The notes under the pieces are model-generated. The model worked only from the letters and a program-made list of their open reading frames with translations. It searched no databases and was not told the DNA's origin. Shown piece by piece: positions 4,260 through 47,058 of a stretch of DNA of 64,000 nt (position 1 is its first letter; every line of letters begins with the position of its first letter). A program made the translations under genes and the position numbers. Source of the stretch: Gemmatimonadota bacterium (GTDB lineage: Bacteria; Gemmatimonadota; Gemmatimonadetes; Gemmatimonadales; Gemmatimonadaceae); assembly GCA_028287235.1 (NCBI GenBank), contig JAQBQB010000009.1:1-64000 (forward strand). The letters run 5' to 3'.

Positions 4260-6815
4260 TCACCCACACTCACTAAACCCACACACATGGCACTTCACGC
4301 AGCCTTCCGCATTCTCCATCTGCGATCCGCAATCCGGACACGTGCCAATGTAGGCTTCACTGGCATGATGAAACCCAAATTGTAGTTCCATCTCCGCCGC
4401 CGCATTGCCTTGTGGTCTCAAAGCGGCCGGCACCTGATGCGTCATCGACGTCATCATCTCCGATCCGCCCGACCCCTGCCCCGCCCCTTCCACATCCGGC
4501 ATCAACTCCTGCTGGACGCCAATCACCCGATCTCTGTTCCACTCCTCGATCGCGATACCAATCGCATCCGGCAGCGAGAGCACCTTGTTGGGCCCAAGCC
4601 CAACCGCCCGATCCGACGAGATCCCGCGCAGCTGCTTGTGCACCGACGACAGCGGAATGCCCGACCGCAGCGCGAGCGAGATCAACCGCCCCATCGCCTC
4701 CGCGTCCGCCATCGCCGAGCCACCCGCCTTGCCGAGCGTCAAGAATACCTCGAACGGCTGCCCCTTCTCGTCTTCCGTGATGTTCACGAACATCACGCCG
4801 AGCGGCGTTTCCTTTCGGATCGTGGTGCCGCGCAGCTTGTTCGGACGCGACCGCTTCGCGCGACGCTGCAGATTCTCGGCTTCCACTTCATATAGTTGCT
4901 TCTTGAGACGCTCGATCTCCGCGTCCTTCTCCGCGAGGTCGCTCCGCAGGTCGGCAAGCGCTGCACGTTCCGCCGACGCCTCGCTGGCGCTCAGCACGAC
5001 ATTCTTTCCTTCGCGCACTTCCTTGGCCTTGTCCGTCGCGCCGGTGGACAGCACCTGGTTGTCGCGCGAGCCGTCGCGATACACCGTGACGCCCTTGCAG
5101 TCCATGTCGTACGCCATCTCGTAGATCTTCCGCACGTCTTCGGCCGTGGCCGTGTACGCGAAATTCGTCGTCTTGCTGATGGCCGAGTCGCAGTGCTGCT
5201 GGAAGGCCGCCTGCATCTTGATGTGCCACTCGGGCGCGATCTGGTTCGCGGTCACGAACACCTTCTGCCACTGGAGCGGCACTTCAGGGTGCTGCACGTG
5301 GCCGGTCTTCGCGATGCGCTCGATCAGCTCCTCGCTGTACCAACCCTCCTCCTTCGAGATGCGGAGGAAGTCCTCGTTCACGTCGGGCATCATCACGCCG
5401 GCCTGGTTCCGCATGAACGCAACGGCGAACAGCGGCTCGAGGCCACTCGAGCATCCGGCAATGATGGAAATGGTGCCGGTGGGGGCGACGGTGGTGACGT
5501 TGCAGTTGCGCAGCAGCGTCATCGGACGGACGCGCTCGCCCTTTTCGTCGCGCGCGGCGGTGTCGTCCGGTCCCCAGATGCTCTTCGCCCACTCGGTGAA
5601 CGGTCCGCGCTCGGCGGCGAGACGGCTCGATTCCTTTTTGCCTTCGACGTCGAGGAACTCCATCACCTTCTTGCCGAACGCCACGCCTTCCGGCGTGTCG
5701 TAGGCGATGCCGAGACGCACGAGGGCATCGGCGAAGCCCATGACGCCGAGTCCAATGCGGCGGATGCGCTTCGAGAGATCGTTGATCTCGGGCAGCGGGT
5801 ACTTGTTGACGTCGATGATGTTGTAGAGGAAGTGCGTGCTGAGCTGGATGTCGTTCCTGAACGAGTCCCAATCCATCTTGCCGCCGTTCACGTACAACCC
5901 AACGTTGATGCTGCCCAGATTGCAGACGTCGTACGGAAGCAGCGGCTGCTCGCCGCACGGGTTCGTGGCTTCGTACGCGCCCAGGTGCGGCACGGGGTTG
6001 TACTTGTTGGCTTCGTCGACGAAGAAGACGCCGGGCTCGCCGGTGCGCCACGCGCCCAAGATCATCTTGTCCCAGACCATCCGGGCGTCGAGACGCCCGG
6101 ATGCCTTCTTGTTCGACGGATCGATCAGGTCGTACTCGCTTCCCGCCTTCACCGCTTCCATGAACTTCCGCGTGATGGCCACGCTGATGTTGAAGTTCGT
6201 CACCTGCGTGAGGTCTTCCTTGCAGGTGATGAAGTCCATGATGTCCGGGTGATCGACCCGGAGAATGCCCATGTTCGCGCCGCGCCGGGTGCCTCCCTGC
6301 TTCACCGCGTCGGTGGAGGCGTCATAGAGCTTCATGAAAGAGATCGGGCCGCTCGCGACCCCGGTGGTCGACCGGACCATCGATCCCTTCCCGCGCAGGC
6401 GCGAGAACGAGAACCCCGTTCCGCCGCCGCTCTGATGGATGAGCGCCATGGCGCTCAACGTGTCGTAGATGCCGTTCTTGCCGTTGGCGAGGGCATCCTC
6501 GACCGGCAACACGAAACAGGCGCTGAGCTGCCCGAGGGGACGGCCGGCGTTCATGAGCGTGGGCGAGTTCGGCTCGAACCGGCGCTGGGTCATGAGGAAG
6601 TAGAACTCTTCCGCCACCGCCGCCACCGCCCCGTCGCTCGCCCCATACCGTCGATCAGCCTCGGCGACCACCGTCGCCACACGCCAAAAAAGATCCTCAG
6701 GCTGCTCGACCGGCTTGCCCTTGTCATTCTTCACCAAGTAGCGCTTTTCGAGCACCGTGCGCGCGTTGGACGAGAGCGTGACAGGACCAGCAGGCGGGTT
6801 TACGGGAAGGTTCAT
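4260..6815 (-). CDS. nrdJ: Adenosylcobalamin-dependent class II ribonucleotide reductase
   Basis: 851 aa; reduces ribonucleotides to deoxyribonucleotides in the cytoplasm using a B12-derived radical, independent of oxygen. Visible motifs: NPTLMNAGR, the redox Cys in SACFVLPVED, the active-site NPCGEQPLLPYDVCNLGS, and APTGTISIIAGCSSGLEP. A coiled coil (about 600-645) is followed by a TSCPD-type region (LRGTTIRKETPLG onward). The C-terminus is Cys-rich (CPDCG...CHVCGFSECG), as expected for the reductant-regenerating and zinc-binding tail. Length is normal for bacterial NrdJ. The ATG is preceded by TAGGAGTACTG. No NrdR gene or activating partner lies nearby, and none is needed for class II enzymes. 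Confidence 0.96.
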   Translation of the reverse strand: MNLPVNPPAGPVTLSSNARTVLEKRYLVKNDKGKPVEQPEDLFWRVATVVAEADRRYGASDGAVAAVAEEFYFLMTQRRFEPNSPTLMNAGRPLGQLSACFVLPVEDALANGKNGIYDTLSAMALIHQSGGGTGFSFSRLRGKGSMVRSTTGVASGPISFMKLYDASTDAVKQGGTRRGANMGILRVDHPDIMDFITCKEDLTQVTNFNISVAITRKFMEAVKAGSEYDLIDPSNKKASGRLDARMVWDKMILGAWRTGEPGVFFVDEANKYNPVPHLGAYEATNPCGEQPLLPYDVCNLGSINVGLYVNGGKMDWDSFRNDIQLSTHFLYNIIDVNKYPLPEINDLSKRIRRIGLGVMGFADALVRLGIAYDTPEGVAFGKKVMEFLDVEGKKESSRLAAERGPFTEWAKSIWGPDDTAARDEKGERVRPMTLLRNCNVTTVAPTGTISIIAGCSSGLEPLFAVAFMRNQAGVMMPDVNEDFLRISKEEGWYSEELIERIAKTGHVQHPEVPLQWQKVFVTANQIAPEWHIKMQAAFQQHCDSAISKTTNFAYTATAEDVRKIYEMAYDMDCKGVTVYRDGSRDNQVLSTGATDKAKEVREGKNVVLSASEASAERAALADLRSDLAEKDAEIERLKKQLYEVEAENLQRRAKRSRPNKLRGTTIRKETPLGVMFVNITEDEKGQPFEVFLTLGKAGGSAMADAEAMGRLISLALRSGIPLSSVHKQLRGISSDRAVGLGPNKVLSLPDAIGIAIEEWNRDRVIGVQQELMPDVEGAGQGSGGSEMMTSMTHQVPAALRPQGNAAAEMELQFGFHHASEAYIGTCPDCGSQMENAEGCVKCHVCGFSECG

Positions 6816-31802: not shown

Positions 31803-32927
31803 CTAGGCGGGCGTCAGCTTCCCCAACACGCGTGGACCTTTCGCCCCAGTCGCCCGCGGCACGTTCCCCGGCTCTCCGGAGACGTGCAGGTAGGCCAGCA
31901 GCGCGAACGCCACGGCCTCTTTCGCCTCGCCGTCGAAGTACCGGTCCGCGAACGCACGCACGCGCACCGGTCCGATCGACTGTGCGATCATTCCCACGAG
32001 CGTCGGGTTCTTCGCGCCGCCGCCGGAGAGCAGCACCTCTTCCACCGGCTCGGGCATGAACCGGCGGTACGCGTCGGCGATGGACGCGGCCGTGAGCTGC
32101 GTCGCGGTCGCTACTATGTCTTCGCTGGAGCAGCGGGGCGCAATCTCGCGGCAGCGCACGACGAGCCGTTCGACGTACGCCGCGTCGAACAGCTCACGTC
32201 CCGTGGACTTGGGCGGAGGCGCCGAGAAATACGGATGTGCCAGTAGCTCGCGCACGACCTCAGCGATCGGTTGGCCCGCAGCCGCCAGCCGCCCATCCTC
32301 GTCGTATGACAATTCCGGAAAGAGCGTTCTCGTAACCGCGTCGATCACGGCTACCCCTGGTCCGGTGTCGAACGCCCGCACACCGTCGAGCTGCCCGTTC
32401 GGCGGAACGATCGTCACGTTCCCGATGCCTCCGATGTTCTGCAGCGCCCGCCACTCGTCGTTGGCGAACAGCATGGCGTCGGCGATCGGCACCAGCGGCG
32501 CGCCCTGCCCGCCCGCCGCCACGTCGCGCACCCGGAAGTCGCTCACCACCGCGATGCCCGTCCGCTCGGCGATCACCGCCGCCTCGCCGATCTGCCAGGT
32601 GGAATGCGGCGCTTCGTGCCACAGCGTCTGGCCGTGCGAGCCGATCGCCCGCACCTCCGAACGCTGCACACCCGCTTCGGCCAGCACGGCGACCGCCGCG
32701 TCGGCGAGCCACGTGCCGAGGTCGAAGCCCAAGCGGCAGTACTCCTGCGCGGTGCCGGCGATGAGCGCGCGGCGAAGCTGGTCGCGCTGCGGTGGAGTGT
32801 AATGCGTGCCGATGAACGCGAGGAGCTGCGCCTCGATCTTCCCCGTGTCGTCGCGGCCGAAGCGCACGGCGGCGGCGGAGATGCCGTCGAGCGACGTTCC
32901 CGACATCAAGCCGACGTAGACGCTCAC
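31803..32927 (-). CDS. anmK: Anhydro-N-acetylmuramic acid kinase
   Basis: 374 aa; phosphorylates and opens 1,6-anhydro-MurNAc to MurNAc-6-phosphate during peptidoglycan recycling. The N-terminal GLMSGTSLDGIS loop, AIGSHGQTLWHEAP, NIGGIGNVT, FDTGPGVAVIDA and LLSGGGAKNPTLVG are the family's ATP- and sugar-binding motifs. It starts with GTG 32927, overlapping the murQ stop by four bases (GTGA), so the two successive pathway enzymes are co-translated. Confidence 0.97.
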   Translation of the reverse strand: MSVYVGLMSGTSLDGISAAAVRFGRDDTGKIEAQLLAFIGTHYTPPQRDQLRRALIAGTAQEYCRLGFDLGTWLADAAVAVLAEAGVQRSEVRAIGSHGQTLWHEAPHSTWQIGEAAVIAERTGIAVVSDFRVRDVAAGGQGAPLVPIADAMLFANDEWRALQNIGGIGNVTIVPPNGQLDGVRAFDTGPGVAVIDAVTRTLFPELSYDEDGRLAAAGQPIAEVVRELLAHPYFSAPPPKSTGRELFDAAYVERLVVRCREIAPRCSSEDIVATATQLTAASIADAYRRFMPEPVEEVLLSGGGAKNPTLVGMIAQSIGPVRVRAFADRYFDGEAKEAVAFALLAYLHVSGEPGNVPRATGAKGPRVLGKLTPA

Positions 32928-34217: not shown

Positions 34218-34258
34218 ATGAGAAAAGTGGCAAGGGTCAGCCCCAGCGACATGACAGG

Positions 34259-34571
34259 TGTGATCCTGAGCGAACCCACGGGTGTCATCCTGAGCGAAGG
34301 GCCAGGTGTCATCCTGAGCGAAGCGAAGGATCGGCTTGCACGTCGGCGGAAGCCGAGATCTTTTCGGCGCACGGAGATCCTTCGGTCGCTTCGCTCCCTC
34401 AGGATGACAGGGCTGCGCTCCCTCGCGATGACAGCGCTGCGCTCCCTCGCGATGACAGGGTTGCGCTCCCTCGCGATGACAGGGCTGCGCTCCCTCAGGA
34501 TGACAGGGCTTCGCTCCCTCGCGATGACAGAACTGCGCACCCTCGCGATGACAACGCTGCGTTCCGTCACG
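34259..34571 (+). repeat. 24-bp in-frame tandem repeat upstream of ggt
   Basis: It begins with three TCATCCTGAGCGAA units, then an inverted GGATCGG/GGAGATCCTTCGG part. From about 34388 there are eight copies of a 24-base unit like GCTGCGCTCCCTCGCGATGA plus CAGG. As 24 is a multiple of three, the frame leading into ggt stays open for 118 codons and reads (G)LRSLAMT repeats. The last copy's ATGAC holds the ggt start codon used here. Confidence 0.9.
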
Positions 34572-36359
34572 ATGACAACACCACGCCTCGTCGCGCTGAC
34601 AGCAGTCCTGCTCCTCGCCGCCTGCCACCGCCAGCCAGTCTTCACCCCCGGCGCCACCGACATCGGCTTTCCGTCGTCGAGCGCCACCGGCACGGCAACG
34701 TACAGCGGCGACCGGCGCGCGCCGGTATTCCCGGCGGCGTGGCCGCATCAACCCGGACGCGCGGCGGTATTCGGCTCGCACGCCATGGTCGCCAGCGACG
34801 CGCCGCTCGCCAGCCAAGCCGGCGTGGAGATCCTCAAGCGCGGCGGCAACGCCGTCGATGCGGCCGTCGCGGTTGGCTTCGCGATGGCCGTCGTCTTTCC
34901 CGAGGCCGGCAACATCGGCGGCGGCGGGTACATGGTCATTCGCATGGCCGACGGCCGCAGTGCCGCGCTCGACTACCGCGAGATCGCGCCGCTCGCCGCG
35001 ACGCGCGACATGTACCTCGACGACAAGGGCAACCTCACCAACAAGAGCGTCGTGGGGCCGCTGGCCAGCGGCGTGCCGGGCGCGGTCGCCGGCCTCACCG
35101 CCGCGCTGGCGAAGTACGGCACGCTGTCGCTCGCCGACGTCATGGCGCCGGCGATCCGCTACGCCGAGCAAGGGTTCGTCGTGGACAGCGCGCAGGCGCG
35201 GTCGTACAACGGCAACGCGCGGCTCCTCCGCCAGTTCGGCGGCGCCGACGTCTTCCTTCCGAACGGCAAGCCGCTCGCCGTCGGCACGCGCCTCGTGCAG
35301 GCCGATCTCGCGCGCACGCTGCATCGCATCGCCGACCAGGGCGCCGCGGGCTTCTATGCGGGTGAGACGGCCAAGCTCATCGCAACCGAGATGCAGCAAG
35401 ACGGCGGCATCCTCACCGAGCAGGATCTCTCGCGCTACAAGCCCGTCTGGCGCGACGCGGTCAAGTCCACGTATCGCGGCTACACGCTGCTCACCATGCC
35501 GCCGTCGTCGTCGGGCGGCGTGGTCGTGACGGAAACGCTCAACATCCTCGAGGGCTTCCCCGCCATGCCGCCGTTCGGCAGCGCGGAGTACGCACATGTT
35601 CTCGGCTCGGCGTATCAGCGCGCGTTCATCGACCGGAACGAGAAGCTCGCCGACCCGGCATTCGCGCAGGTGCCGCTGCAACAGCTCACCGACAAGGCGT
35701 ACGCGGCCAAGCTGCGCGCGACGATCGGCCGCGACCGCGCCACGCCGACGTCGGTGCAGGCGAAGACGATGCGCGAAGGAATGGAAACGACGCACTACTC
35801 CGTGGCCGACGCGAACGGCAACGCCGTGGCCACCACGACGACGCTCAATGCGCTGTACGGCTCCGGCGTCTACGTGCGCGGCGGAGGCTTCTTCCTCAAC
35901 GACGAGATGGACGACTTCGCCGCCGCGCCCGGCAAGCCGAACATGTTCGGGCTGGTGCAGGGCGAGGCGAACGCGATTCAGCCCGGCAAGCGCATGCTCA
36001 GCGCGATGTCCCCAACGATCGTGCTCGATCGCGACGGGTCATTGCTGCTCGTCGTGGGCAGCCGCGGCGGCCCGCGCATCATCACGAGCACGTCCCAGGT
36101 GATCCTCAACGTGCTCGACCAGCACATGATCCTCTCCGACGCCGTGAGCGCGCCGCGCATCCATCACCAGGCGCTGCCCGATTCGCTGCAGTACGAACGG
36201 AATGGCTTGTCGGCCGCGGTGGTGGACTCGCTGCGGCAGATGGGCTACGGCGTGGCGCCGAGCGGCGGAGTGGGACTCATCAACGCGATCATGCGCGTGC
36301 GCGGAGGCTTCGAGGGGATGAGCGATCCGCGGTCGAGTGGAAGGCCGGTGGGCTACTAA
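34572..36359 (+). CDS. ggt: Gamma-glutamyltransferase, lipoprotein type
   Basis: 595 aa from ATG 34572. The signal peptide MTTPRLVALTAVLLLAAC has lipobox LLAAC. The enzyme is exported and cleaves gamma-glutamyl bonds of glutathione and related peptides. Conserved parts: AVDAAVAVGFAMAVVFPEAGNIGGGG, GVPGAVAGL, PPSSSGGVVVTE, the autocleavage site NAVATTTTLNALYGSG (nucleophilic Thr at the small-subunit start), AMSPTIV and GSRGGPRIIT. The start lies in the last unit of a tandem repeat; longer forms would read the repeat as a basic, Leu-rich N-terminus that cannot be excluded. No ribosome binding site stands out. Confidence 0.93.
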   Translation: MTTPRLVALTAVLLLAACHRQPVFTPGATDIGFPSSSATGTATYSGDRRAPVFPAAWPHQPGRAAVFGSHAMVASDAPLASQAGVEILKRGGNAVDAAVAVGFAMAVVFPEAGNIGGGGYMVIRMADGRSAALDYREIAPLAATRDMYLDDKGNLTNKSVVGPLASGVPGAVAGLTAALAKYGTLSLADVMAPAIRYAEQGFVVDSAQARSYNGNARLLRQFGGADVFLPNGKPLAVGTRLVQADLARTLHRIADQGAAGFYAGETAKLIATEMQQDGGILTEQDLSRYKPVWRDAVKSTYRGYTLLTMPPSSSGGVVVTETLNILEGFPAMPPFGSAEYAHVLGSAYQRAFIDRNEKLADPAFAQVPLQQLTDKAYAAKLRATIGRDRATPTSVQAKTMREGMETTHYSVADANGNAVATTTTLNALYGSGVYVRGGGFFLNDEMDDFAAAPGKPNMFGLVQGEANAIQPGKRMLSAMSPTIVLDRDGSLLLVVGSRGGPRIITSTSQVILNVLDQHMILSDAVSAPRIHHQALPDSLQYERNGLSAAVVDSLRQMGYGVAPSGGVGLINAIMRVRGGFEGMSDPRSSGRPVGY

Positions 36360-40594: not shown

Positions 40595-41317
40595 TTACAA
40601 GACGTTTCTCAGAAAGTCGGGCGTCCATCCTTGCATCGCGTTCGTGATCACGACCAAGTAATTCGTGATCATCAACAACGCGACGACGACCAACACGGCC
40701 CCGGACAGCCGGTTCACCCAGACCATTCGGCTCTTCAACACGGAGAACGCCGAGAGAAAGCGCTCCATCGCCACCGCCGCGAGCACGAACGGAATCGCCA
40801 GCCCGAGCGAATAGGCGCCGAGCAGCACCACGCCGCGCGACAAGTCCCCTTGCGATGCCGCGTAGGTGAGGATGCTGCCCAAGATCGGCCCGATACACGG
40901 CGTCCATCCCGCGCCGAACGCGATGCCCACGACGAGCGTCCCTAGGTAGCCCAACGGCTTGTCGGTGACGTGAAACCGGCGCTCCCGCGAGAAAGCCCCT
41001 AGGTTGAAGACACCGAGCAGGTAGAGCCCGAACGCCAGAACCAGCACGCCGCCCACTCGGCTGATCCACACCCGATACGTCACCAGCAGCCGGCCGAGGA
41101 GCGTGGCGGATGCGCCGAGTGCGAGGAAGATGAGCGAGAAGCCGAGCACGAAGAGCAGCGCGTGCACGAGCGCCACGCGGCGCGACCGCTGCACGTCGTC
41201 CAGCGTCATCCCCGTGATGAAGGTGATGTAGCTGGGGATGAGCGGAAGCACACAGGGCGAGAGGAAGCTGGCCAAACCAGCTCCGAACGCGATGGGAACG
41301 GCGACGTCTGCAGACAA
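40595..41317 (-). CDS. ccdA: CcdA-type cytochrome c biogenesis / thiol-disulfide membrane protein
   Basis: About 240 aa, six membrane spans. The two redox Cys lie in FLSPCVLPLIPSY and GAGWTPCIGPILGS, as in CcdA and the DsbD membrane core. It carries electrons from cytoplasmic thioredoxin across the membrane to periplasmic thiols, for haem attachment or disulfide reduction. The first conserved residues follow TTG 41317; a longer ATG form (41413) would add an Arg-rich stretch not expected in the family. No thioredoxin-like partner is adjacent. Its 5' end overlaps that of the opposite-strand AlkP-type gene. Confidence 0.92.
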   Translation of the reverse strand: MSADVAVPIAFGAGLASFLSPCVLPLIPSYITFITGMTLDDVQRSRRVALVHALLFVLGFSLIFLALGASATLLGRLLVTYRVWISRVGGVLVLAFGLYLLGVFNLGAFSRERRFHVTDKPLGYLGTLVVGIAFGAGWTPCIGPILGSILTYAASQGDLSRGVVLLGAYSLGLAIPFVLAAVAMERFLSAFSVLKSRMVWVNRLSGAVLVVVALLMITNYLVVITNAMQGWTPDFLRNVL

Positions 41318-43019
41318 AGGCGGGAGTCGTTTCCTTCGTTGGTACTTCGGTCTGAAATATCGCGTCTTTCGGCGCGAGCGGCGACCCGACGACGGACGCC
41401 GCGGACTCGTCATGCTGCAGATCGACGCGCTGTCCTACGTCGAGCTGCGCCGGGCGATCGAGCTCGGATACTGCCCCACCATCTCGCAGATGGTGCGCGA
41501 AGAAGGATACACCCTTCGCCGCTGGTTTTGCGGGTTGCCGTCGGCCACGCCGTACTGCCAGGCGGGCATCTTTCACGGCGAGAACGAGTGCATCCCGGCG
41601 TTTCGCTTCTACGACAAGAAGGAACGTCGGGTCGTCACCTGCAATACGCCGTCGGGCGTACAGTACATCCGCGACCGCATCCACTCGCCGGGCGCGCTGG
41701 CCGGCGGGTCGAGCTACGTGAACCTGCTCGACGGCGACGCACAGACGGTGGCGCTGACCGTGGCGACGCGCGAGAAGATGTCGGTGTTCCGGCGGCTGGG
41801 CGGGTGGCGCATGGCGCTGCTCATCGCGATCCATCCCATTCGCGTGATGCGCATGGTGCTGCAGTCGGTGCTGGAGTGGCTGCGCGAAGAGTACGAGCGC
41901 GCCGCCGGGGAGCTGGCGCGCAAGCGCACGCACAGCGAGGGCCTCTTTCCCTTCGTGCGCGTGTTGAGCAACGTCATCGTGCGCGAGTTGCAAACCATGG
42001 CGATCGTGCTCGACGTCTACCTCGGCGTGCCGATCATTTATAGCACGTACATGCAATACGACGAGCTCGGACATCACTTCGGCCCGTCGAGCTTTCAGGC
42101 GTTACGCGATCTTCGCCGGACCGACGCGCGCATTCGCGAGATTCGGCGCATGATCCACGCCGCCGGCGGCCGTGAGTACGATCTCGTGTTGCTCTCCGAC
42201 CACGGCATGACGCCGTCGGCGAGCTATCGCGTGCTCTTCGGCGAGACGCTGGGCAAGACGGTGGAGCGCATTCTTCAGGGCGACGCCGCGCGACGTGGAC
42301 AGGCGCCGCTCAAATCGCACGAGAGCTTCTCGGACATGTCCGAGTACGCCGACATGGGGCCGCAGGTGCTCGAGGCCGCGGTGCAGGTGACGCCCGAATC
42401 GCAGCCGATGTTCCGCCGCGGACTCGGACGCGCGCGCGACTGGCTGCGCAGCAAGTACGGTATCCGCGAGCTCATTCTCCCGGAGAAGTATCGCATCGAC
42501 GAGGAGAACGAGGTCGTGGTGACCTACAGCTCCTGTCTCGCACTGCTCTACTTTGCCGACGCGGAGGCGCCGCTGAGCCTCACCGACATCGCGCGCGACT
42601 CGCGGCGGGCGAATCTCTATCTCGAGCTGCTGCGCCATCCCGGCGTGGGTTTGCTCGGAACTCGGAACGGACCTTCCGTACATCTGGAGAGTACCGCCGG
42701 ACGCGCGATCATCGTCGACGGAGCGCTCGAGGTGCTCGAGGGCACGAATCCCCTCGAGCGCTACGAGTCGACGGCTTCGGTCGTCCGCGCGGTGGAGCAT
42801 CTCGTCTCGCAGTCCAATGGCGGCGACGTCACCATTTTCGGAGCGTACGACGGATACGAGATCGTGTCGTTCGACGACCAGATCGGCGCCCACGGCGCGG
42901 CCGGCGGCAATCAGCTCCATCCCTTCCTGATCGGCCCCGCGCATCTCGAGCTCGAGACGGCGCGGCTCCAGGATGCGCGGGACATCAATGGTGCCGTGTT
43001 GCGGAAGTATGCGCGCTGA
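41292..43019 (+). CDS. Alkaline-phosphatase-superfamily phosphodiesterase, cytoplasmic-looking
   Basis: About 575 aa from ATG 41292. Metal and catalytic regions of the nucleotide pyrophosphatase/phosphodiesterase group: VMLQIDALS, Thr nucleophile region GLPSATPYCQAGIFHG, MQYDELGHHFGP, LLSDHGMTPS and a distal AHGAAGGNQLHPF. No signal peptide was found; the N-terminus is basic (RWYFGLKYRVFRRERR). A helical insertion (about 165-230) is unusual. Substrate unknown; phosphodiester or phosphonate head groups are possible. Start uncertain: it overlaps the opposite-strand ccdA start by about 26 bases. Confidence 0.82.
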   Translation: MGTATSADKGGSRFLRWYFGLKYRVFRRERRPDDGRRGLVMLQIDALSYVELRRAIELGYCPTISQMVREEGYTLRRWFCGLPSATPYCQAGIFHGENECIPAFRFYDKKERRVVTCNTPSGVQYIRDRIHSPGALAGGSSYVNLLDGDAQTVALTVATREKMSVFRRLGGWRMALLIAIHPIRVMRMVLQSVLEWLREEYERAAGELARKRTHSEGLFPFVRVLSNVIVRELQTMAIVLDVYLGVPIIYSTYMQYDELGHHFGPSSFQALRDLRRTDARIREIRRMIHAAGGREYDLVLLSDHGMTPSASYRVLFGETLGKTVERILQGDAARRGQAPLKSHESFSDMSEYADMGPQVLEAAVQVTPESQPMFRRGLGRARDWLRSKYGIRELILPEKYRIDEENEVVVTYSSCLALLYFADAEAPLSLTDIARDSRRANLYLELLRHPGVGLLGTRNGPSVHLESTAGRAIIVDGALEVLEGTNPLERYESTASVVRAVEHLVSQSNGGDVTIFGAYDGYEIVSFDDQIGAHGAAGGNQLHPFLIGPAHLELETARLQDARDINGAVLRKYAR

Positions 43020-43062
43020 GCGTGTCCAGGCGTCTGGCATCTTGAGGGAGCGACGTGACTCT

Positions 43063-43442
43063 GTCATCCTGAGGGAGCGACGCGACCCCGTCATCCTGAG
43101 GGAGCGAAGCGACCCTGTCATCCTGAGGGAGCGAAGCGACCGAAGGATCGTCGAGGCGCGAAAGCGATCCTTCGCGTTGCTCAGGATGACATACGACGCT
43201 GTCATCCTGAGGGAGCGAAGCGACCGAAGGATCGTTCAGCCGCGAAAGCGATCCTTCGCGTTGCTCAGGATGACATGCGACGCTGTCATCCTGAGGGAGC
43301 GAAGCGACCGAAGGATCGCTCCGCCGCGAAAGCGATCCTTCGCGTTGCTCAGGATGACATGTGACTTTGTCATCCTGAGGGAGCGAAGCGACCGAAGGAT
43401 CGTCGAGGCGCGAAAGCGATCCTTCGCGTTGCTCAGGATGAC
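43063..43442. repeat. Palindromic repeat array, four units at exact 84-bp steps
   Basis: Three half-units GTCATCCTGAGGGAGCG at 43063, 43090 and 43117 (27-bp steps) lead into four full 74-base palindromic units starting at 43117, 43201, 43285 and 43369. Each has nested arms: GTCATCCTGAG with CTCAGGATGAC outside, CGAAGGATCG with CGATCCTTCG inside. 84 is divisible by three, so one frame stays open from the previous gene's end into the TonB receptor. The final ATGAC carries the receptor's probable start codon. Confidence 0.95.
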
Positions 43443-45747
43443 ATGCGTCCTGTTGGCGGTCGCGTTCCCCGCCGCCGCGCAAACCGCCGCCCAGACCGGC
43501 GTCATCGCCGGCCGAACGCTCGACGCATCGACCGGCGAACCGCGTCCTGGTGTGGGCGTGGCCATCGTCGGAACGACGCGCGGCGCGATCGCGGACCTCG
43601 ACGGCCGCTTCATCATTCCCGGCGTTCCCGCCGGCGACGTCTCGCTCCGCGCGCGGCTGCTCGGATTCAAGACACTCGAGCGGCGCGTCATCGTGCGCGC
43701 CGGCGACACGGCGCGCGTCGAGCTCCGCCTCGAGACCGAGGCCACCGTGCTCGGCGCCGTGAAGACCGAGGCCAAGCTCGCCGAGCGCGACGTGTACGAG
43801 TCGAGGCCGAGCGTGGGGACGGTGCAGATCACGGCGCGCGCCGCCGAGGGCGTGCCGAAGTTCGGCGAGCCGGACATCATTCGCATCGTGCAACTATTGC
43901 CCGGCGTGGAAGCGCGCAACGATTTCTCGACGGGCCTCAACGTGCGCGGCGGCGAGTCGGATCAGAATCTCATCCTGCTCGACGGCTACCCCATCTACAA
44001 CCCGTTTCACTTGGGCGGGTTGTTCAGCACGTTCATCGATCCCACCGTGCGCGACGTCACGCTGATGACCGGCGGCTTCCCTGCGCGCTACGGCGGCCGG
44101 TTGTCGGCGGTGCTCGACGTCCGCTCGGCCGAAGAGGTGCGCCCTGGCATTCACGGCACGGCCGAGCTCTCGGTGCTGTCGTCGACGGGTGAGTTGGCGA
44201 GCACGTTCGCCGGCGGCAAGGGTACGTGGATGGTCGCCGGCCGGCGCACTTACGCCGACAAATTCGTGGCCTTGATCAGCAGCAACGAGCTGCCGTATCA
44301 CTTTCGCGACGAGCAGGCGCACGTCACCTACGCCTTCACGCCCACGACCAAGCTCGCGCTCACGATGTACGACGGACGCGACGCGCTCGACGCGAACATC
44401 GCGTCGTTCGGCGATTCCACGAGCGCCAAAGCGAGCGGCGGAACGTTTCAGTTCGGCTGGGGCAACACGGTGCTCGGCGGCACGCTCACGAAGACGCTCG
44501 CATCGCGCGAGCGCCGCGGCCTTGGGCACTTTTTTCTCGGCGACAGCACCACGCTCGAGCAGCGCGGCTCGCTCTCCACTTTTTCGACACTGCTCGATCT
44601 CGGTGCCGGCTCGCTGACGCTCAACAACAGGGTGAGTGACCGCCGGCTCGAAGGAAGCCTCACGGCGCACACCGACCGCCACGACCGCACCTGGGGCTAC
44701 GAAGTCGCGTCGTACGGCATCAGCTACGTCGCCGCATCGTCGCAAGCGGAGACGCAGTTGTACAACTTGCGCCAGCATCCCACCTCGGGCGCCGCGTACT
44801 TCGACGATCTCTGGCGCTTCTCACCGAAGCTGCTGCTCGAGACGGGCGTTCGCGCCGAAGGGCTGACGGGCCGGCGCTGGCTCGCGGTGTCGCCGCGCGT
44901 CTCGGCGAAATTTTTCGTGACGAAGGACTTCGCGCTCACCGCCGCGGTCGGCCGCTTCTCGCAGTGGACGCACTCGCTCAATCGCGAAGACATCCCGGTT
45001 CGCCTGTTCGACTTCTGGCTGGCGAGCGACGCGACCACGCCGGTGTCGAACGCCTGGCATTACATCCTCGGCACGGAGCGGTGGCTGAGCCCCACGCGGT
45101 ACGCGCGCGTGGAAGGCTTCTACAAGCGTTACGGGAGGCTGCTCGAATCGAACCCGCAGGAAGACCCCAACGTGCGCGGCGACGAGTTCTTTCCCGTGGA
45201 CGGCGATTCGTATGGAGCGGACCTGCTGCTCCGCCAGTTCGAGAGCGGTCCGTTCAGCGGGTGGGTCTCCTATACGTATGCCGTCGCGACGCGGCAGGCG
45301 AACGGCGTGCGCTACTTTCCGGGTCACGACCGGCGGCACGACGTGAACGTCGTGGCGAGCTGGCGGCTCAAGAAGTATCTGCTCGGCATGCGCTTCGGCT
45401 ACGCGACGGGCACGCCGTACACCGACATCGTGGGGCAGATCGTGCGGCGCTTCTACGATCCCGGCCTCAACGCGTACGGAACGCGCGGCAGCGGCAACCA
45501 AGTGGAGTTCATCGGCGGCGACCGCAACGGCGCGCGCCTGCCCACCACGCAGCGCCTCGACCTCGACGTGACGCGCACCTTTCGTGTGCGCGGCATGGCC
45601 GTGGCGCCGTACTTGAGCGTCGTGAACGCGTACGACGCGAAGAACGTGTTCCTCTACATCTTCGACTATTCCAAGAGCCCGCCGACCCGTCAGGCGATCT
45701 CGCAGTTTCCTCTGCTCCCGTCGGCCGGTGTCACGATTCATTTCTGA
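43438..45747 (+). CDS. TonB-dependent receptor with carboxypeptidase-like N-terminal domain
   Basis: 769 aa from ATG 43438, inside the last palindromic repeat unit; TTG 43429 would add a basic residue to the signal peptide. Short hydrophobic signal VLLAVAFPAAAQ, then a carboxypeptidase-regulatory-like domain (GVIAGRTLDASTGEPRPGVG). The plug has VGTVQITARAAEGVPKFGEP, IIRIVQLLPGVEARNDFSTG, LNVRGGESDQNLILLDGYPI and GGFPARYGGRLSAVLDVRS. The barrel ends in AGVTIHF (Phe). It imports an unknown ligand using TonB energy. The lipoprotein gene beginning at about 45901 resembles the DUF4249 partners that accompany such receptors in Bacteroidota. Confidence 0.93.
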   Translation: MTCVLLAVAFPAAAQTAAQTGVIAGRTLDASTGEPRPGVGVAIVGTTRGAIADLDGRFIIPGVPAGDVSLRARLLGFKTLERRVIVRAGDTARVELRLETEATVLGAVKTEAKLAERDVYESRPSVGTVQITARAAEGVPKFGEPDIIRIVQLLPGVEARNDFSTGLNVRGGESDQNLILLDGYPIYNPFHLGGLFSTFIDPTVRDVTLMTGGFPARYGGRLSAVLDVRSAEEVRPGIHGTAELSVLSSTGELASTFAGGKGTWMVAGRRTYADKFVALISSNELPYHFRDEQAHVTYAFTPTTKLALTMYDGRDALDANIASFGDSTSAKASGGTFQFGWGNTVLGGTLTKTLASRERRGLGHFFLGDSTTLEQRGSLSTFSTLLDLGAGSLTLNNRVSDRRLEGSLTAHTDRHDRTWGYEVASYGISYVAASSQAETQLYNLRQHPTSGAAYFDDLWRFSPKLLLETGVRAEGLTGRRWLAVSPRVSAKFFVTKDFALTAAVGRFSQWTHSLNREDIPVRLFDFWLASDATTPVSNAWHYILGTERWLSPTRYARVEGFYKRYGRLLESNPQEDPNVRGDEFFPVDGDSYGADLLLRQFESGPFSGWVSYTYAVATRQANGVRYFPGHDRRHDVNVVASWRLKKYLLGMRFGYATGTPYTDIVGQIVRRFYDPGLNAYGTRGSGNQVEFIGGDRNGARLPTTQRLDLDVTRTFRVRGMAVAPYLSVVNAYDAKNVFLYIFDYSKSPPTRQAISQFPLLPSAGVTIHF

Positions 45748-45794: not shown

Positions 45795-45912
45795 GCGATC
45801 CTTCGCTGCGCTCAGGATGACACCGCTGCCGGTAAGGCGATCCTTCGCTGCGCTCAGGATGACACGGGTGCCGGTAAGACGATCCTTCGCTGCGCTCAGG
45901 ATGACACAGGTG
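45795..45912. repeat. 42-bp in-frame repeat supplying alternative start codons
   Basis: Two and a half copies of a 42-base unit (GATCCTTCGCTGCGCTCAGG, then ATGACACCGCTGCCGGTAAG). ATGs fall at 45817, 45859 and 45901, all in the frame of the DUF4249-type gene. Its core is the half-palindrome of the 43-kb array. Confidence 0.92.
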
Positions 45913-47058
45913 ACAATCGTCCTCGTCGCGCTCGTCACCGCTTGCGACCTCGGCACGATCACGGTTCCCAAGACTGCGCCGACCGTCGTCGTCCACGGCG
46001 TGCTCAACCCCAACAGCACCAGCCAGGTCGTGCTCGTCGAGCAAACACTCACGGGCACGATCACGATTCCCGACACGGGCTTCGACGCCGCCGATCCGAT
46101 CGTCAGCGCGGGCGGTGTGCCGGTGCGTGGAGCGCTGGTCGAGATCACCGATCCAGCCGGCAAGGTGACGCGCGCCATCGAGGACGCGACGGTGCCGGCC
46201 GCGAACGGCAAGGGAGCGGGCGTCTACCGGTTCCCCATGCCCGGGAACTCTCTCGTGCTCGGCGGGCGATATCAGTTGCACGTGCACACCTCCGCCGGCG
46301 ACGACGTCAGAGCGTCGACGCGCATCCCGCGCGCCACAGTCCGATCGGTCGGCGGGCTCACGCGCACGTTCAATCGCGATCACGACGTGCTCTCCACGTC
46401 GTGGAGCGGCGTGGACCTGCACCGCACGTACGCCGTGCGCATCGAGTCGCCCTTCGGACCGTTCTTTCTGTTCACCGACAGCACGCACTTCCGCACGACC
46501 GGCGAGCTGCGAAACCTCTTCTCGAATGAGCTCGAGCGGGTGTTCATCCCGGGCTTCCGTCAGGAGATGGTCGTCGCCGCTGTCGACTCGAACTTCTACG
46601 ACTATTACCGGACGAACAACGACCCCTTCACCGGCAGCGGCATCATCAGCCGCGTCACCGGCGGATTGGGCATGTTCGGATCGATCGTGGAGCTGAACAC
46701 CGGAACGATCAGCGTAGTCGCCGATCAGACCGAACCGATCGAATCCCGCTTCCGGCTGTTGACGGGCGACCCGTCGACCGCGACCTATGCGAGTCAGATC
46801 ACGCTGTACATCGAGTCGAAGGCGGCGCGCGACAACCTGCCCTCGGCGCTGAGCGGCCGGTACGCGACGCCGAATCCCAACTCGCGAACAGACGGCGTGG
46901 TGGGCGAGCTGCTCGGATCGAGCGTGACGTTGGCGCTGCTCGGCAACCAGCTCGCGGGAGACACGCTCGAGGTGTTCACGGGGCAGTTGCGAGGAGACAC
47001 GCTGGTGGGGAGTTACCGCACGCATCCCGGGGCGGCGGTGTTCCTGCGGTCGCCGTAA
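45901..47058 (+). CDS. DUF4249-like lipoprotein, partner of the TonB receptor
   Basis: 385 aa from ATG 45901; starts 42 or 84 bases earlier are in frame and would add repeat-encoded Arg-rich residues. The signal peptide is MTQVTIVLVALVTAC with lipobox LVTAC. The body is beta-rich with two Ig-like parts (VVVHGVLNPNSTSQVVLVEQ; VRGALVEITDPAGKVTRA; GGRYQLHVHTSAGDDVRAST). The N-terminal order matches DUF4249 proteins, which sit next to TonB receptors in Bacteroidota; assignment is by pattern and context. Probably surface or periplasmic and acting with the upstream receptor. Confidence 0.75.
   Translation: MTQVTIVLVALVTACDLGTITVPKTAPTVVVHGVLNPNSTSQVVLVEQTLTGTITIPDTGFDAADPIVSAGGVPVRGALVEITDPAGKVTRAIEDATVPAANGKGAGVYRFPMPGNSLVLGGRYQLHVHTSAGDDVRASTRIPRATVRSVGGLTRTFNRDHDVLSTSWSGVDLHRTYAVRIESPFGPFFLFTDSTHFRTTGELRNLFSNELERVFIPGFRQEMVVAAVDSNFYDYYRTNNDPFTGSGIISRVTGGLGMFGSIVELNTGTISVVADQTEPIESRFRLLTGDPSTATYASQITLYIESKAARDNLPSALSGRYATPNPNSRTDGVVGELLGSSVTLALLGNQLAGDTLEVFTGQLRGDTLVGSYRTHPGAAVFLRSP

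Follow-up and report, generated by a model that had tools for sequence, protein, structure and literature searches.

A tandem palindromic repeat, probably translated as part of the signal peptide of a TonB-dependent receptor and of other exported proteins in a Gemmatimonadaceae genome

Palindromic repeats lying in frame inside proteins have already been described for Rickettsia and, as isolated cases, elsewhere. The Rickettsia palindromic elements (RPEs), about 150 bp long, are found in unrelated metabolic genes (Ogata et al. 2000, 2002; PMC10969869). As far as the accessible parts of that literature describe them, they share with the repeat reported here the properties of being short, palindromic, multi-copy, inserted in frame in coding genes and translatable; they differ from it in that our repeat has a 74-bp unit, forms tandem arrays, is mostly intergenic and has its coding copies mainly in signal peptides. 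Like the RPEs, it is inserted in frame in otherwise intact coding genes; the likeness is one of architecture, and we do not file the repeat as an RPE. The enterobacterial RU-1/2/3 elements are likewise small mobile repeats with an open frame (Delihas 2007; PMC2759123), but they are of another size than our repeat and, in the excerpts of that work available, appear as single N-terminal fusions, with neither tandem arrays nor a frame constraint (PMC2759123). A third system, the REP/BIME sequences with their RAYT transposases, comprises high-copy palindromes of alternating orientation, with an extragenic bias and a tendency to form arrays (PMC2817692, PMC3733652), and in the portions of these sources available to us all of these traits are shared with our repeat, which consists of many short, mainly extragenic palindromes (356 exact arms; 99 of 119 clusters non-coding). 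It departs from the REP/BIME pattern by its coding insertions, by the lack of a Y1 transposase (PF01797) match in the genome that carries it, a search whose control was positive in 5 of 14 genomes, and by the lack of any GTAG/CGTC tag noticeable by eye. A RAYT-driven REP is thus not supported, the Y1 transposase being absent from this genome. As in a MITE, the 74-bp palindromic unit carries terminal inverted repeats and encodes no transposase. In the open literature that we searched, no paper naming the repeat DNA or its peptides was found, which is not proof of absence.

The window, that is, the whole stretch of 64,000 nucleotides that was analysed, contains 33 repeat arms with at most one mismatch against 1.13 expected from shuffled sequences. 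In the array preceding the TonB-dependent receptor gene the left arm (L) is GTCATCCTGAG and the right arm (R) is CTCAGGATGAC; L arms lie at 43063, 43090 and 43117, R/L pairs follow at 43180/43201, 43264/43285 and 43348/43369, and a terminal R lies at 43432, with direct-repeat spacings of 27, 27, 84, 84 and 84. These coordinates confirm what an initial annotation of the sequence had described, namely four palindromes at an exact 84-bp period preceded by half-units at 27-bp spacing. Each palindrome measures 74 bp, and a further degenerate half-unit from about 43036 can be added. The same annotation had the frame open across all units into the receptor, and from 42973 onwards the plus-strand frame is indeed uninterrupted until the stop codon of the receptor (45747). 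The features discussed below are as follows.

34218..34560, plus strand: third array, lying within the N-terminal part of a gamma-glutamyltranspeptidase lipoprotein and in its frame (arm scan, translation)
41238..43019, plus strand: upstream gene, type I phosphodiesterase family (PF01663, E 5.5e-11)
43009..43011, plus strand: likeliest native receptor start ATG, in frame, 429 nt before 43438; ATGCGCGC also in the relative G003
43036..43116, plus strand: half-units (left arms) 27 bp apart, of which the first is degenerate (direct-repeat family D2)
43117..43190, no strand: palindromic unit 1 (palindrome and direct repeats)
43201..43274, no strand: palindromic unit 2 (palindrome and direct repeats; DNA hairpin z -5.1)
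43285..43358, no strand: palindromic unit 3 (palindrome and direct repeats)
43369..43442, no strand: palindromic unit 4, ending in the right arm, with an ATG at 43438 (repeats; DNA hairpin z -5.6)
43438..45747, plus strand: TonB-dependent receptor with carboxypeptidase-regulatory and plug domains (PF13620, E 5e-14; PF07715, E 6.9e-7)
43438..43485, plus strand: signal-peptide hydrophobic core and cleavage region, MTCVLLAVAFPAAAQ (translation, compared with relatives)
45811..45905, plus strand: second array, made of three right arms 42 bp apart that share the frame of a lipoprotein signal peptide (arm scan, translation)
45817..47058, plus strand: lipoprotein gene with the repeat-encoded N-terminus MTPLPVRRSFAALRMTRVPVRRSFAALRMTQVTIVLVALVTAC (weak DUF4249 match)

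Both units that were folded as single strands (units 2 and 4) form DNA hairpins well beyond those of shuffled sequences. The units are themselves palindromic and the linkers between them measure only about 10 bp, which rules out a CRISPR or other spacer array. The 84-bp period can be written as 63 + 21, and since the distance from a left to a right arm is, genome-wide, most often 63, the unit itself partly accounts for the multiple of three. In the third array the arm spacings are 24, 24, 90 and 96; the gene that holds it (34218-36359) matches PF01019 with E 6e-165. The DUF4249 match (PF14054) of the lipoprotein gene at 45817, with E 2.4e-6 and 27.8 bits, falls just below the curated cut-off of 28.5.

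The initial annotation took the last ATGAC of the repeat as the most plausible start of the receptor signal peptide, a proposal that is not supported for this gene. At 43009 there is an in-frame ATG, in overlap with the stop codon that closes the upstream phosphodiesterase gene (TGA, 43017-43019). It is common to G003: there too it stands where this upstream gene ends, and the peptide that would begin at it, MRATRRRALSLGMTKLLLLAASALRAQ, holds one arm-like stretch. From the sequence, the receptor start probably lies upstream of the array, most likely at this ATG. As for the comparison with orthologues lacking the repeat, which the initial annotation had suggested, the relatives G004 and G005 have no array; in both, a single frame runs on from the upstream gene into the signal peptide of the receptor. 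The gap between the upstream gene and the aligned receptor measures 59-90 nt in same-genus relatives versus about 480 nt here, a difference of about the size of the array. Protein identity among the fused orthologues compared is about 60-91%, a divergence too great for the exact ends of the insertion, or a target duplication, to be read from them. As a separate observation, phosphodiesterase and receptor form one continuous reading frame in these array-free genomes (L121, L126, L132), and in the window (41238-45747) they are separate, overlapping genes.

The right arm CTCAGGATGAC occurs in 356 exact copies in this 5.73-Mb Gemmatimonadaceae MAG (G000) versus 2 for a reversed control. Its copy number within the genus is patchy and ranges from 1 to 356, two genomes having 163 and 108 copies and three others 1 to 4. 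Clusters were analysed in a sample of 1.02 Mb around the copies, holding 352 of the 356 exact arms, in which genes were called with a codon model trained on that same sample. Non-coding DNA makes up 9.7% of the sample, yet it holds the midpoints of 99 of the 119 clusters obtained; in 24 clusters the last right arm is in frame with a called gene. In 11 of these 24, a signal-peptide hydrophobic core follows directly after the array or after further degenerate arms. The fused set includes TonB receptors (that of the window and, by reading of its sequence, L036), the gamma-glutamyltranspeptidase and the DUF4249-like lipoprotein, together with genes that we take, by reading of their sequences, to encode an HtrA-like protease (L087), a VPS10-like protein (L098), an M28-like peptidase (L104) and an amidohydrolase-like protein (L061), and three further signal-peptide fusions (L054, L058, L065). 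Ten of the 11 signal-peptide genes have an in-frame ATG or GTG shortly before the array, as in MKLAAFVIL-array-TMLLAGC and MNIMTRVIPSAAL-array-LLAFAIGC. The very short hydrophobic core left after the array in L065 means that some insertions may damage the signal peptide. Coding arrays outside signal peptides occupy tolerant places: a NuoE-NuoF linker (L078), a loop of a membrane protein (L048) and a C-terminal extension (L050). The linker of the NuoE-NuoF fusion protein is repeat-derived and in frame in two species (L078 in G000, L143 in G003), and in L048 the in-frame repeat lies at about 4782-4924 between hydrophobic segments of the protein, presumably of PAP2 type by reading of its sequence.

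A first hint of translation through the repeat comes from the frame of the fused arrays. These were selected only by the frame downstream of the last arm, a choice that favours no particular spacing, and all spacings are divisible by three in 10 of 11 rule-selected fused arrays versus 24 of 86 others (p=8.6e-5), L033 being the one that breaks the rule of three. A first version of the test, on a hand-picked set, had given 8/8 versus 29/93; pooling with G003 and G014, of which the latter contributes three fused arrays and the former none, gave 13 of 14 fused versus 46 of 129 others (p=4e-5). Openness behaves in the same way, since 10 of 11 multi-arm signal-peptide clusters are stop-free throughout versus 44 of 143 unfused ones; this signal-peptide set was partly picked by eye, and the rule-based test agrees with it (12/16 fused versus 39/130 others, p=7e-4). 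The array L099 has a stop inside. The charge of the predicted peptides points in the same direction. Read from the last ATG, none of 10 fused genes has a lysine or arginine before the h-region, as compared with 74 of 89 ordinary signal peptides (the count excludes w34499, where degenerate arms follow), and read-through of the repeat would supply ...RSLRMT or a similar stretch before the core. Gene and signal-peptide calls were made with home-made heuristics rather than a trained predictor, and the genome is probably a metagenome assembly, in which tandem arrays may be assembled wrongly. Because the spacings of fused arrays are multiples of three and nearly all of these arrays are stop-free, the repeat is probably translated as an n-region in the receptor and in about ten other genes, and we infer that selection on translation causes the frame bias. 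Of the initial idea that a mobile repeat was co-opted as a start or as an n-region, the n-region part is thereby strengthened by frame bias and openness, and the start part is not supported for the receptor and may hold for the neighbouring gene at 45817.

It therefore seems to us likely, judging from these sequence patterns, that a translated, protein-coding palindromic element has been inserted in the n-region of the receptor, the start of which would lie upstream. A non-autonomous, hairpin-forming palindromic element, present in about 120 clusters in the genome and expanding in tandem, would have inserted one copy in frame into the 5' end of this gene, downstream of the start codon and a short n-region and upstream of the hydrophobic core; translation from ATG 43009 through the array would yield a long, arginine-rich n-region, which would be made and would still work, and the array would then have been enlarged in frame-preserving steps. 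The same process may have operated in about ten other exported genes, the sites being occupied because an n-region would tolerate extra basic residues, and not because the element seeks exported genes.

We regard as unlikely the alternative that survives best, according to which the last repeat ATG (43438) is the receptor start, the repeat having replaced the original one and the open frame upstream being incidental. A codon-based gene caller does place the start there, and the h-region begins right after MT. Further, the gene at 45817 has no in-frame ATG, GTG or TTG between the preceding stop and its array, its first start being the repeat ATG itself, so that the repeat may supply the true start codon in this lipoprotein gene, and two genes of G014, which we take from their sequences to be trehalose-synthase-like and DinB-like, begin at such an ATG. 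Such a start, however, leaves the multiples-of-three spacing of fused arrays unexplained, gives an n-region devoid of positive charge in all 10 genes counted, disregards the upstream start common to G003 and, as the sequence reads, has AGG abutting the ATG, which leaves no room for a usable Shine-Dalgarno spacing.

Insertion into the n-region followed by translation from upstream remains the preferred reading, and one may go further and speculate that n-regions are recurrent sites of landing and growth, where array changes by whole codons would tune the export or initiation of surface proteins and where sister species would have received repeated, independent insertions; we hold this extension to be quite improbable. 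That the array is an ordinary intergenic repeat ending beside a gene, with a long frame due only to a stop-poor, high-G+C repeat, we find more doubtful still: the predominance of clusters centred in non-coding DNA (99/119) speaks for it, but frame bias and openness are specific to fused arrays: most other arrays do not keep the frame, and each arm carries a TGA in one of its three frames.

The placement data, which fit such an intergenic repeat, also bear on any preference for exported genes. If clusters were placed uniformly, 0.8 signal-peptide joins would be expected, and the rule finds 9 (p=1e-7); with insertion restricted to non-coding DNA and the starts of signal peptides, the expectation is 7.2 against the 9 observed (p=0.29), and another version of this test with non-coding and target space gave p 0.05. 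The same placement rule finds no case in G003 and two in G014. Tested in three ways, a preference for exported genes showed no excess beyond non-coding and target space; 9 joins against 7.2 do not make a good case for such a preference, and tolerance of signal-peptide starts explains the placement of the repeat. The initial annotation had proposed such a genome-wide check, and outside coding DNA placement comes out as near random. Recruitment of the repeat as a beneficial, adjustable n-region or regulator, whose expansion and contraction tune export or translation, is the weakest reading and very improbable, since tolerance alone accounts for the pattern without an excess at exported genes over the tolerated space, even with the tandem growth in steps of three and the different repeat-derived N-termini of the amidohydrolase-like gene in G000, G001 and G003 and of the M28-like peptidase in G000 and G003.

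To what has been described for in-frame palindromic repeats, this Gemmatimonadaceae genome adds signal peptides with about eleven coding insertions and arrays that differ clearly in frame according to whether they are coding or non-coding. With both kinds of array in a single genome, it offers a natural experiment on how long an n-region can become, and it is a warning for annotation that taking the last ATG as the start hides the inserted residues. Repeat-derived N-termini also occur in relatives, for example L144, L145 and L152 (G001, G003); the repeat variants at these loci differ from those in the signal peptides of the same genes in G000 and could be separate insertions or diverged old copies. 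In G000, clusters recur every few kb, far more densely than elsewhere, on contig C3 between 18 and 55 kb and on contig C9 between 140 and 280 kb. Finally, within the window, ARAGORN calls an unusually long tRNA-Arg (ccg) of 102 nt at 31964-32065, which may be a false call or an odd gene.
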